Below, one piece after another: positions 6,237 through 16,225 of a DNA stretch of 20,242 nt. Source of the stretch: a virus; the IMG/VR virus record IMGVR_UViG_3300043786_000218, positions 1 through 20,242 of that record. The stretch is one strand, 5' to 3'. Below the pieces are notes generated by a model. That model was not told where the DNA came from and made no database searches. It saw only the letters and a list, made by a program, of their open reading frames with translations. Position numbers and translations under genes: made by a program. The first letter of the stretch is position 1, and every line of letters begins with the position of its first letter.

Positions 6237-9200
6237 TCAGGGTCCGATGCCGTACTGCCCGACCTGCTGCACGGTGAAGATGATGAACGTGCTAGGCCCT
6301 GGCGTGTAGCCGTCAGCAGACTGCTCGGCGGCGGTGTAATCAATCCAGCGGTCGCGCAGCGTGTTGCTGCCGGTCTGGCTGGCCGTGATGGTGCGAACTC
6401 GCCGAACGAACCGCCCCGTCGGGTCGTAGATGGTGAATCGGTACGACTCGAACGGCTCGTCCATCGGATGCGGAGGCTGCGCGAAGACCGGCAGCACCGC
6501 CCGGCACCAGTTGGCCCGGACCAGAAGGCGCGCGCTCAACGTCGTCGGGTGGATCGTCGTGGTAGCCCACCGCACAGGCAGCGGCAGCGCGTTGCGCCGA
6601 CCGTTGACGATCGACACCCCCTCGACGTCGTCCAGCGTCAGGCCCGCCGGCACCACCTTGTACGTCAACGACGTGGGCGTGATCTCGCCCTCGAACTCGT
6701 GCCAGTACGGCGAGTCATCCAGCAGGACGAGCTTGGTGCCAGCCGGCCAGGTGTCGGGAGCTGTCCCACGCAGGCCGCGATACCAGTTGTCGAGCGTGAA
6801 CCGGCCGTCACCCAACGCCGTGACGGAAACAAAGGCTGCGATCTCTGCCGGCCGCCCCGGCGCGATGAGCGCGCACCAGTTGGTCCCGGTTTGTGCCTGA
6901 TAGTTGGTCACGCTGTTGACGCGCGCGGCGGAATGTTCGGAGAACTGGAACGTGACCGGATCAACGAACACGCCGAAGGCTGGCAGGAATGGACTGCCCT
7001 CATATTCGGCTACGACGATCTCGCTGCGGCTGGCGATCGTAAACGCGGTCTCGCTGGTGCCGACAACGCTGCGTTCGTCCGTCGTGCCGAGGAGGCGGTA
7101 GTTGGTGCCGTCTACGCTCTCGTAGATCGCTGCGCCTGCCCAGGGCCCGCCGGTCTGGTCAATGGCGATGTGCAGGCCGGGCCGGTCTTTCTGCGACTCG
7201 CGCACCGCCGGCGCGTCGATGACGACGACCTCAAGGCCGCTGGCACCTCCAGGCACCGGAGGCACGAAGTCGGCCCCCGACTGCGCCGCAGAACCGGTCA
7301 CGGCCAGGTCGACGTCCTCGGCAAGGCAGGTGATGTTCACCCGGAAGTCGCTGCCGACGTCGCGCTGAATGATCCGCGCCGTGTGGTCCTGCCCATCGTC
7401 GTCCGTCCACGTCAGCAAGTCGGATTCCAACAGGTGCAGGTACGACGCCGGCAGCGTGAACCGATAGGTGCGGCGGTTGACCCATGCGCGCCGAAGCATC
7501 GTCGCGGCCAGGTTGCTCGCCTCGCGCCGCGTCAGCACGAGCTGCCGCAGGTCGACGTCCTGCTCGTTCTGGTTGTCGGTGCTCTCTGGCGCCCGAATGC
7601 CGAACGACTGGTACCCGGCAAGCAGCACGTTGTCCGCGTCCTGGTGCCGCACCGAGACGCGCGTCGGCAGGTCTTCCTCGGCCTTGTCCTCGACCGTCCA
7701 CTTGTCGTCTGCGGCGGATTCCGTGTCCAACCGCGTGCCGAAGTCCGTGAACGTCGCGCCGTTGTTGACGCTCACGACGTCGGCGTTGGCGAACTCGGTG
7801 AAGGACAGCACGCCGTCGCGGTCCTGCACCATGAGCTGGCCGGCGATTAGCAGAGGCTGAATCGCCTGCACGACCGGGACAGCGCCGCGCAGGAAGTAGC
7901 CCTGGAAGGGCTTCGGCGTCACGCCCGACGTGTCAATCGCCGGCGACAGCAGGTTGCCGCGCTCGCGCAAGATCGCGTCGATGGCCTGCGGCCAGTCCAT
8001 CTGGTTGTCAACTTCAAGCACGGCCTCGCACGAGTACGGGAGCTGGTCGCCGAACAGCGTTGCGACGAAGCCGTCCAAGACTTGGTACGACAGGCCGCGA
8101 TAGGCCGGCACGTTGGCAGCGCCGAGCGCGTTGGACAGGATCGGGTCGGCCGTCTGCGTTTCGCTACCGGTGTAGTAGTAAACGTCTGGATTCCAGCCGG
8201 CGGCGAAGACGCCGAAGTAGAACGATGGCGACAACGATCGCAGCGTGGCTGGTGAAAAATCCGACAGTGGAATGGATGGATAGGCCGCAGGGTTACCCGA
8301 CCACGACCTTCCATCGATGCCGTTCTCTATAAACGCCCATACGCCGGCCGGTGCAAAAGCTCCTAGCGGATTGGTACTGGTCCCGTCCCCGAGTGCCTGC
8401 TGCTTGCGATACTTGACGGCATCTCCGCCCGGCCAGATGCCGTATATATCCGAACTGACCTGCACAGGCTCTCTTGCCTGAAACACGTTTTGCGGCGGTA
8501 GATGGCTGTCTGTGCGGAACTGTGCATCGCCAATCGGGGTTCCGACTGGTGGCACAGGCCCACTGGAGCGTGACTGGAACGCCTGCACGCTGAATATCGC
8601 ATCGTCAATGCGCTCCACTGCTGCCGGCTGGAAAGGCGATCCGGCTGTAGCTGCAACGCCCGACAACGCAGTTGTGGCATTGAACCGCCGCTGAAGCGTG
8701 AGGCTGCTTGGCGTCGTAGCGCTGTGGTCAGTGATCGCCGTGACCTTGAACGGCTTCAGCAAGACCGGCGTGCCTGCCGTCTGCACCCAATCCCGCAGCT
8801 GGACGTAGTCGTTCAGCTTGAACTTCTCGGTGAAGGCCGGTTGCAGCGTGTCGGCCATCGTCAAGACGACGTCGGTCCCACTCGTCTGCGTCAACGTCAT
8901 CAGATGCGTACGCACCTGGAGCTGGTTGCGCGTGCGGAACAGCATCAGCCGCCCGTTGCCGTAGAGCGTGACCAGCCGTTGCGTCGGGCGGTCGTTGAGC
9001 GCCAGCGCGGCGTCGAAGATGACACGGCGAAGCGACGTGCTGGTGCCGGCCTTGCTGTTCGTCGTCGTCTCCTCGCGCGTCTTGTTGTCCTGCCAGAGGA
9101 TATGCGTCGGCACGCGCACTCGGGTACCGATCGCCCAGACGCGCGGCGCTCCAACGTCGTTGGAGCCGATCGGAGCGTCGAGCAGCCGCTCGGGCTCGCT

Positions 9201-9344
9201 GGCCTCGCCGGGCTTCTTTCGAAGCGCCGGCATGATGTAGTAGTAGTCAACGACAGCCGCGGCGATGCCGACAGCCCAGCCCACCACCGGCACGCCGACG
9301 AACACGCCAGCGGCTGCTGCTCCTTGGACTGCTGCGGATGCCAT
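6237..9344 (-). CDS. Tail tip host-attachment protein (Phage-tail_3 / GTA g15-like, J-like)
   Basis: At 1035 residues this is the largest protein of the window. The N-terminus has a hydrophobic Gly/Ala/Val region (about 5-34) followed by MPALRKKPGE, as in tip proteins of the J and GTA 'megatron' group. The middle (about 430-700) has the phage-tail_3 pattern, including LLSPAIDTSGVTPKPFQGYF, RREASNLAATMLRRAW and a TWTDDDGQDHTARI strand. The C-terminal third carries W-Y-R-G-L-R-G-T motifs and fibronectin-like strands. It follows the NlpC/P60 gene, as g15 follows g14 in GTAs. The start ATG at 9344 has GAGGAG at 9353-9358, eight bases upstream. There is no glycoside hydrolase barrel as in the Rhodobacter GTA protein. 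The region 8200-8700 is poorer in G+C than its flanks. Confidence 0.82.
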   Translation of the reverse strand: MASAAVQGAAAAGVFVGVPVVGWAVGIAAAVVDYYYIMPALRKKPGEASEPERLLDAPIGSNDVGAPRVWAIGTRVRVPTHILWQDNKTREETTTNSKAGTSTSLRRVIFDAALALNDRPTQRLVTLYGNGRLMLFRTRNQLQVRTHLMTLTQTSGTDVVLTMADTLQPAFTEKFKLNDYVQLRDWVQTAGTPVLLKPFKVTAITDHSATTPSSLTLQRRFNATTALSGVAATAGSPFQPAAVERIDDAIFSVQAFQSRSSGPVPPVGTPIGDAQFRTDSHLPPQNVFQAREPVQVSSDIYGIWPGGDAVKYRKQQALGDGTSTNPLGAFAPAGVWAFIENGIDGRSWSGNPAAYPSIPLSDFSPATLRSLSPSFYFGVFAAGWNPDVYYYTGSETQTADPILSNALGAANVPAYRGLSYQVLDGFVATLFGDQLPYSCEAVLEVDNQMDWPQAIDAILRERGNLLSPAIDTSGVTPKPFQGYFLRGAVPVVQAIQPLLIAGQLMVQDRDGVLSFTEFANADVVSVNNGATFTDFGTRLDTESAADDKWTVEDKAEEDLPTRVSVRHQDADNVLLAGYQSFGIRAPESTDNQNEQDVDLRQLVLTRREASNLAATMLRRAWVNRRTYRFTLPASYLHLLESDLLTWTDDDGQDHTARIIQRDVGSDFRVNITCLAEDVDLAVTGSAAQSGADFVPPVPGGASGLEVVVIDAPAVRESQKDRPGLHIAIDQTGGPWAGAAIYESVDGTNYRLLGTTDERSVVGTSETAFTIASRSEIVVAEYEGSPFLPAFGVFVDPVTFQFSEHSAARVNSVTNYQAQTGTNWCALIAPGRPAEIAAFVSVTALGDGRFTLDNWYRGLRGTAPDTWPAGTKLVLLDDSPYWHEFEGEITPTSLTYKVVPAGLTLDDVEGVSIVNGRRNALPLPVRWATTTIHPTTLSARLLVRANWCRAVLPVFAQPPHPMDEPFESYRFTIYDPTGRFVRRVRTITASQTGSNTLRDRWIDYTAAEQSADGYTPGPSTFIIFTVQQVGQYGIGP

Positions 9345-9755
9345 CTACTCGACTCCTCGGATGCGCCAGAACTGTGCCACGGCGTGCGTCAGCCGCGTGC
9401 GCTCCACAGTCTTGGACTTCAGCCAGGCATGTACCACCCACGCGATGCCATCCTGGCCGATCTCGACCGGCACCACGATGTGCCGCGCGTGCCGGCCGAC
9501 GTAGACCTGCGCCATGTGCGCGTCCTCAAGGCGGTCGCAGCGGTCCGCGTACTGCAGCAGCCCACCCGACAGCTCGTCGCCGTGCGGGTGCAGCGAGTAG
9601 TCGCGCGTCACCGGCAGTACGAGACCGCAGGCGGTCGCCGCAGCCCACGGCACGCCAACGCAGTCGAGCGCGCCGCCGATCGTCCGGCCCCGGTGCCCAA
9701 CCTGCGTCCCGATGCACGAGGCAACCGCCGCGAGGTACTGCGCGCGAGGAATCAA
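9345..9755 (-). CDS. NlpC/P60 cysteine peptidase of the tail tip (GTA g14-like)
   Basis: The 136-residue protein has the papain-like peptidase signature: a catalytic cysteine in GGALDCVGVPW (C32) and a histidine in the strand-helix WVVHAWLKS (H108). Such enzymes cleave peptidoglycan peptides and help the tail cross the cell wall. Its place between the hub and the tip protein is that of g14 in gene transfer agents and of the K peptidase domain in lambda-like tails. The start is TTG at 9755, overlapping the upstream stop as TTTGA. The GGAGGAGG ribosome site lies in the last codons of the upstream gene with unusually short spacing. No signal peptide is present, as expected for a virion part. Confidence 0.8.
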   Translation of the reverse strand: MIPRAQYLAAVASCIGTQVGHRGRTIGGALDCVGVPWAAATACGLVLPVTRDYSLHPHGDELSGGLLQYADRCDRLEDAHMAQVYVGRHARHIVVPVEIGQDGIAWVVHAWLKSKTVERTRLTHAVAQFWRIRGVE

Positions 9756-10885
9756 ACCTCCTCCGGCGGACTGATGATGGCCTGCGCCGACGGCGCGTAC
9801 GGGTCGCCGCCGAAGTTGGCCACGTTGTTGAACTTGTCCCGGCAGGTGCTCAACAAGCCGTCGCAGCCGACCTGCACGATGGCTCGATCGCCAACCACGA
9901 TCGGGAACGGCGTCGGCGTGAGCAACGTCAGCTTCCGGTCGCTCGCCCTGTAGTCGGAGATGACGAACTCACGCCCGATGTTCGCTCCCGTGCAGAAGAT
10001 CAGCGAGCCGTCGCGGTAGAACTGGTCAACCTCGGCCGTCATCGCCGTGTTCATCGTGACCTCCAAGCGGCTGCGATTGTTGACGATGCTTGCGACCTGG
10101 AAGCCTTGGCCCACCCGGTATCCGATCGTTTGCGCCGGCGTCGTCTCGAACGGCTCGTCCAGCGTGAGCGTCGTTGCAGTGTTCGACAGGATGCGCCGTA
10201 GCTGCCCGCTGCCGGCCGTGACGCTGCCGTTGGGCCGCAACAGGACGTAGCTGTGGCTGCTCGCCGTCTTTCCGTACAGGTTCGTGGCCCAGCTCTGCGT
10301 GCTGTCCGTGAGCGTGTCGACGCTCGCACTCGTGGCGTTTCCCGTGTTCGTCGGGCTCAACTGCGTCCATTGCCCGATATCCTTCTTGCAGAACGCACCG
10401 CCCAGCTTGTACGGGCACTTCGGGCCGAACGTGCCGGCGAACCGCCCACCCTGCGGCCTCTGCAGCTGCTGCGCGCGGCCCTCCAGCGTGGCCGTGAAGC
10501 TGCTGCCCGTGCGCAGCATCTGCCGAATCCAGCGCCGATGCCGCGCCAGCACGATCCACGGCCGAACCCAATCCACGATGACCTGGCGCACCTCGGCCCC
10601 AAGGTAGGTCTGCGCCTCCAGCTCGCTTGCCTGGATCTGCACCGAGTCGACGATGCCTTTGACCTCCTGGGATCCGGTGCGCAGCGCGGCCTCGCGCCGG
10701 TCCGCCGACAGCGTGCCGAACACGACCGGACGATAGGTGCGGCCTTCGAACGTGAGCTGGCGGTCGTGATCCGTCACCGCGAGCGTGCCGCCGTCCTTGC
10801 GCGTGATCAGCAGCAGGTGCGCAAGCTGCTTGGCGCGGTAGTAGGCCAGCGAGTCCAGGCCGACGACGCCGGGGCGAGTGGTCAT
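9752..10885 (-). CDS. Tail hub protein, DUF2163/TIGR02218 (GTA g13-like) with inserted domain
   Basis: This 377-residue protein has the DUF2163 layout: an N-terminal strand region with LLLITRKDGGTLAVTDHDR (about 24-42), then the cysteine motif GPKCPYKLGGAFC (C157 and C166), and near the end CDGLLSTCRDKFNNVANFGG (C341 and C348). In lambda L the equivalent cysteines bind an iron-sulfur cluster; the same is likely here. Between the two pairs is an inserted Thr/Ser-rich beta-module (about 182-262), which makes the protein longer than the family usually is. It overlaps the Gly-rich adhesin gene (ATGA) and the NlpC/P60 gene (TTTGA). The hub joins the distal tail ring to the tip. Confidence 0.82.
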   Translation of the reverse strand: MTTRPGVVGLDSLAYYRAKQLAHLLLITRKDGGTLAVTDHDRQLTFEGRTYRPVVFGTLSADRREAALRTGSQEVKGIVDSVQIQASELEAQTYLGAEVRQVIVDWVRPWIVLARHRRWIRQMLRTGSSFTATLEGRAQQLQRPQGGRFAGTFGPKCPYKLGGAFCKKDIGQWTQLSPTNTGNATSASVDTLTDSTQSWATNLYGKTASSHSYVLLRPNGSVTAGSGQLRRILSNTATTLTLDEPFETTPAQTIGYRVGQGFQVASIVNNRSRLEVTMNTAMTAEVDQFYRDGSLIFCTGANIGREFVISDYRASDRKLTLLTPTPFPIVVGDRAIVQVGCDGLLSTCRDKFNNVANFGGDPYAPSAQAIISPPEEV

Positions 10886-12941: not shown

Positions 12942-14228
12942 TTAGCCGCCTCCCGGCGTGGTCATGCCGGTGTTCGCGCGCCCCTGCGTGGCAGTCAGAC
13001 CGCCAACAGCGCCACGGAAGATCGCGCCGCCGATGTCGGCAAGTCCCTGACGCGCGATGCTCGCGACGATGCCCGCGAACGCCTGCCGCAGCGTGGTCGT
13101 CTTCATCAACACGTCCGCGAAGGCCGCGCCGACCGTGCTGCCGATGTTGCCGGCGTAGTTGGCGGCGCGCTCCATGTTCTCGGCGACGCGCTGCGCGTCC
13201 TCGACCTCGCGCTTCTTGTAGGTCGCCAGGACGCTAGCCATCTGCACGCTTTGCTCCAGCGCCGATTGGACGCCGTAGTTCGGCCCTCCTCCCACCTGCG
13301 TCGGCACCGTCTGCGGCTGGAGTGCGCGGTAGCGCGCGCGAAGCACTTCCTGCGTCTGCTCCGGGGACAGTTGGACGCTGGGCAACCCGCGCTCAAACTG
13401 CGTGACCTGCGTGCCCTGCATGCCCGCCGCGTAGTACCGCGTCACGTTCTGGCCGCCGGTGCGCATGTATTCGCGCGCCGCCGCCTGCTGCGCCTCGGTG
13501 CCGCGCGCCACTAGGTAGCGCGCCACGTCCGCGCCGCCGCCGACGCCGCCAGGGCCGAACTGCTGCAGGTTCATGCCCTGGCCAGTCCGCTGCACGTCCT
13601 GGATGGCTTGGAACAGCGCCTGCTGCTGGCCGCTGGCGTCCTGTGGCAGACCGAGGTAAGCGCGCGTCGAGGCGTCCAGCTTGGCCTTCTGCATCGCGGC
13701 CGCGAGCTGGTCGAAGCTGCTGGCGGCCTCCTTGGTGTTGCTGCTGAACACCGACATCAGGCCGCCGATCGTGGACAGCACCGTGACCAGCGTCATGAGC
13801 GGGTGCGCGCGCAGGATCGTACCGAGCGTCGACCAGCGGCTGATGGTTACCTGCGTCGTGTCGTTGACCGTCCGCAGCACGCGCGTACCGAGGCCGTCGC
13901 CGACAGCCTCCAACACCTGGTAGCTGCGCGTGACCTCCTGCGTACGGGCCGACAACTCGCGGAAGTCCTGCACGGTCCTGCCGATCTCCAGCAGCGCCCG
14001 CGACGCGCCGAACGCGCCGGCGGCGACGTTCAGATCGGAGAACGCCTTGGCCGTCTGCGCGATGCCGCCGGCGACCTGCACAGCGCCGCCAGTCGTCTGG
14101 AACGCCTTGCTGATGGCCTGCTGCGACTTCAGTGCCGAGTCACTGACCGAGTCGATCGCCCGCTTCGCCTGCGCCGCGCCCTGCTCCATCGGGCGCGCGT
14201 CGATCGCCAGTTCGAGAACCTCGGCCAC
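12942..14228 (-). CDS. Short tail tape measure protein
   Basis: The 428-residue protein fits a tape measure by position (after the chaperone pair, before the distal tail protein) and by sequence. It has a helical Ala/Gln/Ser-rich N-terminus (QGAAQAKRAIDSVSDSALKS), a hydrophobic segment at about 141-162 (AHPLMTLVTVLSTIGGLM), a Gln-rich helical centre and an ending typical of this group (FAGIVASIARQGLADIGGAI plus a Gly-rich tail). At about 1.5 angstrom per residue the tail would be near 64 nm, short for a siphovirus. The GTG start at 14228 has GAGG at 14235-14238, six bases upstream. Its first 89 bases overlap the GT extension in another frame. Confidence 0.85.
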   Translation of the reverse strand: MAEVLELAIDARPMEQGAAQAKRAIDSVSDSALKSQQAISKAFQTTGGAVQVAGGIAQTAKAFSDLNVAAGAFGASRALLEIGRTVQDFRELSARTQEVTRSYQVLEAVGDGLGTRVLRTVNDTTQVTISRWSTLGTILRAHPLMTLVTVLSTIGGLMSVFSSNTKEAASSFDQLAAAMQKAKLDASTRAYLGLPQDASGQQQALFQAIQDVQRTGQGMNLQQFGPGGVGGGADVARYLVARGTEAQQAAAREYMRTGGQNVTRYYAAGMQGTQVTQFERGLPSVQLSPEQTQEVLRARYRALQPQTVPTQVGGGPNYGVQSALEQSVQMASVLATYKKREVEDAQRVAENMERAANYAGNIGSTVGAAFADVLMKTTTLRQAFAGIVASIARQGLADIGGAIFRGAVGGLTATQGRANTGMTTPGGG

Positions 14229-15023
14229 TATGCACCTCGCTGATGTGCGCCACGTAGGCGCGGTCCATGGCCTTCAGCAGCCGGCACCACCGCCGGCGAC
14301 TGGCGCCCGTGATCTCGTGGTCCTCGCACCACCTCGACACCTCGGACCAGCTCAAGGCCTCGCCGTCCGCGACGTTCCGCCCGTCCATCAGCACGACCCA
14401 CGCTTCCCAGACTGGCTGCAGGTCGGCGTCCAGCGCCGGCGGCGCTGCCTCGGCGGTCTCGCGCAGCTCCTCGGGGATCTTCCGGCCCTTGCGCCGCAAC
14501 CATTCCCGCAGGCCCGCCTCGGCGGCCTTCTTCTGCGGGTCTTGGGTGCGTGTGAGCTGCCATCGCAGGGCCTGGATCAGTTTCCCGCGGCGCGGGCTTC
14601 CTCGTCGGCCAGCAGGGCCGCGCGGTCTTGGGCGATCCGCAGGATGCACTCCAGCAGGTTCGTCCACTCGGGCCGCGCCAGCATCTGCGCCGCCTCGGCG
14701 ACGCGGTACACCAGCGGCTGCCCGCCCACCGTGAGGTTGCGCGCGCCCTTCCAGAGCGTCTGGGCGACCGCCTGGGCGAGGATCGCCCGCTCATCGGCTG
14801 GCGACAGCCGGCGGTCCCGGATCTCCAGCAGGTAGGGCCTGCGGGCTTCCTCAAGGGCGCGCTCGTACTCGACGCCGATCGGGCAGACCAGCACCGCCGG
14901 CCGGTCCTCGTGCTCGCCGCGCGAGGCGACGGCAGAGAGCGTCCCGTCCGGCTGCCGCGACAGCAGCCACCAGACACCGCCGGACAACTTGCCGGCGTCG
15001 AGCTTGCAGGTGTTGAGGTCCAT
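14140..15023 (-). CDS. GT: Tail assembly chaperone frameshift product (GT-like)
   Basis: Slipping one base back at the heptamer 14580-14586 joins the G frame to an open -1 frame that runs to a TGA at 14140. The fusion has 294 residues: the 148 of G plus 146 more. The extension starts LIQALRWQLTRTQDPQKKAA, has ALDADLQPVWEAWVVLMDGR and ends with a basic, Gly-rich tail. It overlaps the tape measure gene by 89 bases in a different frame. In lambda the G to GT ratio is set by -1 slippage at GGGAAAG, and the T part binds the tail tube protein while G coats the tape measure. The extension has no start of its own with a ribosome site. The layout is clear from the sequence; translation is inferred. 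Confidence 0.75.
14577..15023 (-). CDS. G: Tail assembly chaperone, zero-frame product (G-like)
   Basis: This 148-residue protein lies between the tail tube and tape measure genes, where lambda G lies. It starts MDLNTCKLDAGKLSGGVWW, then has the helical features of phage tail chaperones (IGVEYERALEEARRPYLLEI and ERAILAQAVAQTLWKGARNL). It ends EEARAAGN, encoded so that the GGGAAAC heptamer abuts the TGA stop. Chaperones of this kind coat the tape measure during tail tube assembly and are not in the mature virion. It has no clear ribosome site. A fraction of ribosomes should shift into the -1 frame at the end to make the longer product. The gene symbol follows lambda by analogy. Confidence 0.75.
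   Translation of the reverse strand: MDLNTCKLDAGKLSGGVWWLLSRQPDGTLSAVASRGEHEDRPAVLVCPIGVEYERALEEARRPYLLEIRDRRLSPADERAILAQAVAQTLWKGARNLTVGGQPLVYRVAEAAQMLARPEWTNLLECILRIAQDRAALLADEEARAAGN
14580..14586 (-). promoter_or_regulatory. Programmed -1 ribosomal frameshift site, GGGAAAC
   Basis: Read on the minus strand the end of G is GCG GGA AAC TGA. The heptamer G GGA AAC fits the X XXY YYZ rule for -1 slippage: tRNAs on GGA and AAC can re-pair with GGG and AAA. The stop codon follows directly, which favours a pause. Lambda uses GGGAAAG at the same place in G. Downstream, only a small stem is seen (CTGC-GATG-GCAG, about 22 bases on), with no obvious strong pseudoknot. Confidence 0.75.
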
Positions 15024-15040: not shown

Positions 15041-16225
15041 TCAGTCCCACCGCTGCAACCGCAGCGTGCAGTCCTGCGCCTGCGAGCGATAGCCGGCAAC
15101 CGTCATCGCCCGGAAGATGTCTGCCCCAGGACCGGACACCGGAACCGACAAGTCGGTGATCTTCGCCTGCGGCATCGCCACCGACCACCCGCGCCCGTTG
15201 GCGTCCGTCGTGACAAGCCACAGGTCCGTCGCCGTGTTGCTTAGGAACGTGGTCTGGTCGTCCTGGGTGTCGAAGTAGGCCGAGAGGTTCGCCGAGGCCG
15301 TGAACAGGCCACGGCTCATCGACACCGGGCCGAGGGCGGCGAGCTGCTCGCGCGGGCGGATGTTGTTCGCCATGGACAGCGCCACCGACTGCGCCGGCAC
15401 GTCCTGGCCGACGCCGGCGAAGTTCGACAACTGCACCTCCTGCACGCCGATCGGGTCGAGCGTCGGAGCGAACGTCATGGCCGCGTAGGTCGCGCCGGTG
15501 ATGAACACGTCCGTCGTGCCCGTGTTGCCGGTCACGATGCTGTCTTTCGCCTCCATCTGAAAGGCCACCGTGGCGAGCTGATTCACGGCCAGGTTGATCG
15601 ACGCCGAGTTGAACACGCAGCCCCGGTAGATGTGCGCCCGCTGCAGGTCCAGATGGGCAATCTCGACGGTGAAGCTCTGTTCGCTCAAGGCATTGGTCGC
15701 CCGCGCGCCGCGCGTCACAGTCACGTTGCCCGACGAGCCGGTGAAGTTGGCGACTCGGTCGACGGTCAGCGTGGTCGCTGCAACGTTGGTCACGCGCAGG
15801 TAGCCCATGTCGGCGGCTAGGCCACCGGACAGCCGGATGATGTCGCCTACGGCGAACCCATCCGTGATGAAGCTGGGAGCGGCCCGCGTGATGGTCTTCG
15901 CCGCCGCCGTCGTGGTGCAGCTCGCAACCGTGGCCGCCGCCGCCACCGTCGAGTTGCTCAGGAGCGCGAACAGCGCGGCGTTGAGGCCTTCGCCGCTCGG
16001 CGAGTGCCGCAGCTCGCATGGCAGCGTTCCCGTGGCCCCTCGGCCAGTCCGTACCATGTCCTCGACGTTGCGCGTCTGGTTGATGATGTTGGACGGCGTC
16101 TGCGACACCCTGTCCGCCATCGAATGGCCAGTCACCGGCAGACGCAGCATCGTAGGCGTTGCCGGCGTGACGCCGTAGGTCACTTCTTGAACGATCGAGA
16201 CACGAGTGCGGAATCCGTCAGCCAT
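15041..16225 (-). CDS. Major tail tube protein
   Basis: The 394-residue protein starts MADGFRTRVSIVQEVTYGVTP, the common start of siphovirus tail tube proteins of the Phage_tube family, and continues with a TPTMLRLPVTG strand and RTGRGATGTLPCELRHSPSGE (two adjoining stretches). Residues about 100-170 form an inserted Thr-rich beta-module (FITDGFAVGDIIRLSGG and AATTLTVDRV). The C-terminal half repeats tube-type beta-strands. It polymerises as the rings of the tail tube. It lies two bases after the tail terminator and 17 bases before the chaperone gene, the usual order. It is larger than lambda V because of the inserted module. No ribosome site is evident, so coupling to the terminator gene is likely. 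Confidence 0.85.
   Translation of the reverse strand: MADGFRTRVSIVQEVTYGVTPATPTMLRLPVTGHSMADRVSQTPSNIINQTRNVEDMVRTGRGATGTLPCELRHSPSGEGLNAALFALLSNSTVAAAATVASCTTTAAAKTITRAAPSFITDGFAVGDIIRLSGGLAADMGYLRVTNVAATTLTVDRVANFTGSSGNVTVTRGARATNALSEQSFTVEIAHLDLQRAHIYRGCVFNSASINLAVNQLATVAFQMEAKDSIVTGNTGTTDVFITGATYAAMTFAPTLDPIGVQEVQLSNFAGVGQDVPAQSVALSMANNIRPREQLAALGPVSMSRGLFTASANLSAYFDTQDDQTTFLSNTATDLWLVTTDANGRGWSVAMPQAKITDLSVPVSGPGADIFRAMTVAGYRSQAQDCTLRLQRWD

Follow-up and report, generated by a model that had tools for sequence, protein, structure and literature searches.

Organization of the tail chaperone locus

The window (the whole 20,242 nt stretch analyzed, from IMG/VR record IMGVR_UViG_3300043786_000218) carries on its minus strand a tail assembly chaperone gene, G, positioned between a tail tube gene (PF18906) and a tape-measure candidate, as in lambda-type G/GT loci. 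A second open frame, T, extends beyond the end of G in the -1 frame. The features of the region are listed below.

15041 to 16225, minus strand: tail tube protein, the gene directly upstream (PF18906 Phage_tube_2, E 2.3e-25; phrog_290)
14577 to 15023, minus strand: G, tail assembly chaperone, 0 frame (ORF from ATG 15023, 148 amino acids, C-terminus ...EEARAAGN and stop)
14598 to 14603, minus strand: GAGGAA, a purine-rich Shine-Dalgarno-like stretch and putative stimulator, 11 nt 5' of the heptamer and kept in close relatives
14580 to 14586, minus strand: slippery heptamer G_GGA_AAC (5'-GGGAAAC-3'), read directly and in phase in relatives
14577 to 14579, minus strand: G stop codon TGA, read directly, immediately 3' of the heptamer
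14140 to 14580, minus strand: T extension, -1 frame (LIQALRWQLTR...), with its stop at 14142-14140 and its conserved part at 14227-14580
14251 to 14496, minus strand: Phage_TAC_18 (PF23812) domain inside T (Pfam E 6.4e-10, 39.5 bits, cut-off 27)
12942 to 14228, minus strand: tape measure protein candidate, the next gene downstream, assigned from position and ORF and overlapping the T frame

Direct reading of the minus strand across the junction gave ...GCC GCG GGA AAC TGA TCC..., with the heptamer in the X_XXY_YYZ phase relative to G. The original prediction of a perfect heptamer adjoining the G stop was confirmed, GGGAAAC at 14586-14580 being followed by TGA at 14579-14577, as was its claim of an open -1 frame from upstream of the site to 14140. 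This frame, which reads GGG AAA CTG ATC ... (GKLIQALRWQLTR...), is free of stops from GTG 14667 down to the stop at 14142-14140. The T frame runs for approximately 29 codons into the tape-measure gene, which starts at GTG 14228, and conservation as T is confined to the part preceding this overlap. No ATG, GTG or TTG was found in the -1 frame of the window from the heptamer to TTG 14499 (29 codons in), which is the first usable start 3' of the heptamer and lies inside the conserved T sequence. Since GGGAAAC occurs twice in the window where 1.33 copies were expected from shuffling, the string by itself proves nothing and the weight lies in its phase, place and conservation.

Identity of the encoded proteins

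In addition to its Pfam domain, T matched the phrog_3817 tail chaperonin (E 8.6e-12) and corresponds to the second half of phrog_8233, a 271-position profile of fused tail assembly chaperones (E 4.3e-7). The T-extension model was entirely helical (pLDDT 84), and what had been described as a sensible helical extension was thereby placed in a known family, PF23812.

Family matches for G by sequence were very weak in Pfam and PHROG profile searches. The AlphaFold model of G (pLDDT 84) gave as top row of the VIA list 2ob9, the HK97 tail assembly chaperone (Z 6.4, rmsd 5.2, 99/107 residues; next row 3.5); this match came from the VIA list alone, Foldseek against PDB returning nothing significant, and comparison with BFVD retrieved tail assembly chaperones (E 1e-5). 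With Z under 8, the model gives moderate support to a resemblance of G to the HK97-type tail assembly chaperone fold. The G model and the T model each matched the same single predicted fused proteins, from Acinetobacter phage Loki (262 aa) and Caulobacter phage CcrColossus (268 aa).

The 428-aa ORF downstream had no significant family match in Pfam or PHROG profiles and is called a tape measure by position only; provided that it is one, its length indicates that the tail should be short. Searches at the DNA level and with the tape-measure candidate gave no match among isolated phages. At 6237-10885 of the window, tail-tip genes matched the phiJL001 Gp84 / BR0599 and Rcc01698-like families, some of which are known from gene transfer agents, and the tail tip therefore belongs to this type.

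Conservation of the junction in close relatives

GGGAAAC was present at the same place in all IMG/VR relatives of G and T and in a contig binned as a Phycisphaerales metagenome-assembled genome (MAG), and TGA adjoined the heptamer in each of these close relatives except L047 (GGGAAAC TCG TAG). The G C-terminus ...EE..A.GN was invariant among relatives at 26-100% identity. Residues L1, L5, W7 and L9 of T were likewise invariant, the conserved T sequence beginning at the heptamer, and pairwise changes in T showed an excess at third positions, which fits a translated frame.

The MAG contig (L051 / L075, JADCJE010000143.1) is 33.9 kb in length, and the same heptamer-stop cassette was found in a second Planctomycetota genome, L097. 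These carriers offer a lead to the host, short of proof.

Survey of the chaperone family

A survey of 110 loci, grouped in 50 clusters at 70% T identity, was then assembled and the junctions were parsed mechanically. The main survey queries consisted of T starting after the heptamer, and the site was therefore not selected for; the earliest relative sets and the KL1 query did contain the GK residues. Two Planctomycetota genome matches to PF23812 were added. A broad alignment of T contained too much diversity to serve for scanning.

In the comparison of homologous chaperone genes called for by the original prediction, XXXAAAC stood in phase in 49/50 clusters (GGGAAAC in 32, AAAAAAC in 15, both in 2), and about 110 loci keep the -1 frame. 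Across clusters the first triplet was either GGG or AAA, its three bases switching together, a change that alters the 0-frame residue (G or K) and preserves the slipperiness. The stop adjoined the heptamer in 40/50 cluster representatives and lay 3 to 63 nt away in the remainder, with UGA, UAA and UAG all used among the abutting stops. The AAC last codon and the abutting stop, which had been singled out for attention in this one phage, are therefore a rule in the chaperone family. The fetched DNA contained 1012 distinct long ORF ends, of which 60 consisted of a slippery heptamer and a stop; all 60 were XXXAAAC and all belonged to a G-type gene.

The exceptional cluster was that of EBPR siphovirus 3 (JF412298.1; L030:2863-2869), where an in-phase GGGAAAG lies in gp12, 63 nt 5' of its stop, and the -1 frame is open into gp13. 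These two genes are annotated separately, and their sequences point to a likely unannotated frameshift. L172 (IMGVR_UViG_3300009431_000318), a distant relative, was excluded from the 50 clusters when the mechanical parse scored its heptamer as absent. By eye, positions 1165-1200 of this locus contain an in-frame TAG one codon before GGGAAAC-TGA (...ADT, stop, GN, stop), for which a sequencing error, breakage of the gene or decoding of TAG as an amino acid by the phage are candidate causes.

Proposed expression of the fused chaperone

We consider it very probable that a lambda-type programmed -1 ribosomal frameshift joins G to T. This reading, already put forward in the original prediction, is strongly supported by the gene order, the domain families, the predicted folds, the conservation over about 110 loci and the lack of alternative starts. 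Points that weigh against it are the low slipperiness of AAC in E. coli, the ordinary stability of the RNA 3' of the site and the very weak sequence matches of G. The majority of ribosomes would read G to TGA and yield the short chaperone. A minority would undergo a tandem one-base backward slip on G_GGA_AAC, with tRNA-Gly re-pairing on GGG and tRNA-Asn on AAA, and would read on as ...A-G-(N or K)-L-I-Q-A-L-R..., translating the T domain and so producing a G-T fusion. If lambda is a guide, the tape measure would be coated by many G and few GT, and T would recruit the tail tube subunits. That slippage occurs, how often it does so and what G and GT each do are our inferences.

Expression of T as a separate gene appears very improbable, whether T had a ribosome site to itself or was coupled to termination of G; candidate starts would be a CTG overlapping the G stop (CTGA) or TTG 14499. 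The CTGA overlap does resemble the common ATGA coupling, and the GenBank records of many relatives give T an ORF of its own with assorted downstream starts. However, the codon following AAA varies (CTA, CTC, CTT, CTG; L047 carries CTC), which leaves no conserved start at that point, and the onset of T conservation lies 5' of every usable start. ATG, GTG and TTG were absent from the -1 frame before the heptamer in 82/109 loci, many of which have CTA, CTC or CTT after it, and in L027 the -1 frame meets stops a few codons upstream without any start. Independent initiation of T is unlikely since so many loci lack a start codon in its frame. A change of frame through RNA polymerase slippage is the least credible explanation, the six consecutive A of the AAAAAAC relatives being set against the runs of only three in the GGGAAAC of the window and most clusters, where the lack of a long homopolymer argues against transcriptional slippage, and against the block interchange of the two heptamer forms, which fits tandem tRNA slippage.

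The programmed ribosomal frameshift could be assisted by neighboring signals. Across clusters, anti-SD affinity at 11-14 nt was modestly above that of synonymous shuffles (z about -2 to -2.7) and immediately beside the heptamer it was below them, so that a Shine-Dalgarno-like stimulator upstream of the heptamer, such as GAGGAA, is suggestive only. An unusually stable 3' RNA structure was not found in the window, where folding without pseudoknots gave z of about 0.2, -0.4 and -0.75 for 40, 60 and 90 nt; a few relatives showed scattered low 3'-fold z values which were not common to all.

Possible role of the abutting stop codon

We lean to the view that the abutting stop would most likely act as a release-factor-sensitive limiter. 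The shift would compete with the release factor and the fusion would stay scarce, which suits a low supply of GT.

It is possible, if somewhat doubtful, that the stop is instead a stimulator, slow termination holding the heptamer in the E and P sites and promoting the slip. Its position is kept as its identity varies, and a case of strong stimulation by a stop 3 nt downstream is known from pea enation mosaic virus (PMC5009743). In bacteria, on the other hand, a passage of PMC4373837 states that shifting at the HIV site fell when the next codon was a stop and that extra RF2 abolished the shift. The YuA-like phages L081, L082, L087 and L089 also manage with the stop 30-39 nt downstream of a retained GGGAAAC.

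That the stop is a by-product we regard as unlikely. On this view the conserved Leu (CTN) would force the base 3' of the heptamer to be a thymine, and the 0 frame, having no further use, would end early. This Leu is near-invariant, being found right after the heptamer in 109/110 loci. Yet other T-frame CTN Leu codons overlap a 0-frame stop in only 66/333 cases (20%) compared with 80% at the site, where UGA, UAA and UAG all occur; for this excess the nominal binomial P of 1e-19 takes no account of shared ancestry and is too small.

Returning to the limiter, we tentatively propose, as a fair possibility, that all of the Phage_TAC_18 chaperone family uses one cassette of XXXAAAC and an immediate stop, in which release-factor activity against slippage would set the G:GT ratio. 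If this is true, release-factor levels or stop context would tune tail assembly.

Relation to known systems

The lambda G/GT system resembles the window: its chaperone gene precedes the tape measure and has, close to its end, a -1 shift on an X_XXY_YYZ heptamer with GGG AAA. The lambda heptamer is GGGAAAG, with G as its last base in place of the C of the window site.

The closest arrangement was that of Burkholderia phage KL1 gp18/gp19 (JF939047, PMC3483164), in which GGGAAAC lies directly before TGA, the fusion begins GKLI and the joined CDS is annotated. KL1 T is homologous to the window T (hhalign prob 95.6, E 1e-8), but identity is only about 25% and in KL1 an extra gene separates the chaperone from the tape measure. 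In phage Loki gp12/gp13 (PMC5313236) the heptamer also adjoins the G stop, and the Loki protein shares the fold of the G and T models, but its heptamer is AAAAAAC. Sites have been predicted in the pre-tape-measure chaperones of the Caulobacter phages CcrColossus (GGGAAAC) and phiCbK (AAAAAAC) (PMC3556154); the fused CcrColossus protein matches both the G and T models, but these are large phages. G_GGA_AAC is also found in haloarchaeal HCTV-1 (PMC5009743). A passage of PMC4373837 describes eukaryotic cases in which a stop immediately follows the slippery sequence; these involve eukaryotic ribosomes, other heptamers and other genes.

In E. coli the AAG-ending form is far more slippery than AAC, which is the poorer last codon because the shift leaves a mismatch, and the E. 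coli rules place heterogeneous codons such as AAC under AAG (PMC4066793). The present chaperones are thus a bacterial frameshift family fixed on a codon that those rules rank as weak. Reporter assays with HK97-like chaperone genes gave 6-7% shift (PMC3711429). In annotated SEA-PHAGES genomes the slippery site and the stop are on average 26 nt apart, the corresponding mean in the Xu set being 36 nt (PMC10885494), which indicates that tail chaperones do not generally have the two side by side.

It is well supported that the individual site is mostly an ordinary G/GT frameshift, the same arrangement having been predicted before in KL1 (GGGAAAC-TGA) and Loki (AAAAAAC-stop). The slip itself is a known phage device, and what is added here is the conservation of AAAAAAC or GGGAAAC with an adjoining stop throughout a widespread chaperone family. 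No earlier statement of this family-wide rule (AAC and abutting stop) was found in the open-licence literature, and one may exist elsewhere. The family provides a natural set of UGA, UAA and UAG stops, abutting or displaced, for studying a stop beside a slippery site, with the YuA-like phages as a contrast.

The pattern should also help annotators to recover fused chaperones missed or split in records. The records for L077, L084, L091, L092, L095 and further phages list T as an independent ORF that starts late, even though XXXAAAC-stop joins it to G, and in many GenBank entries the annotation of the chaperone could apparently be corrected.
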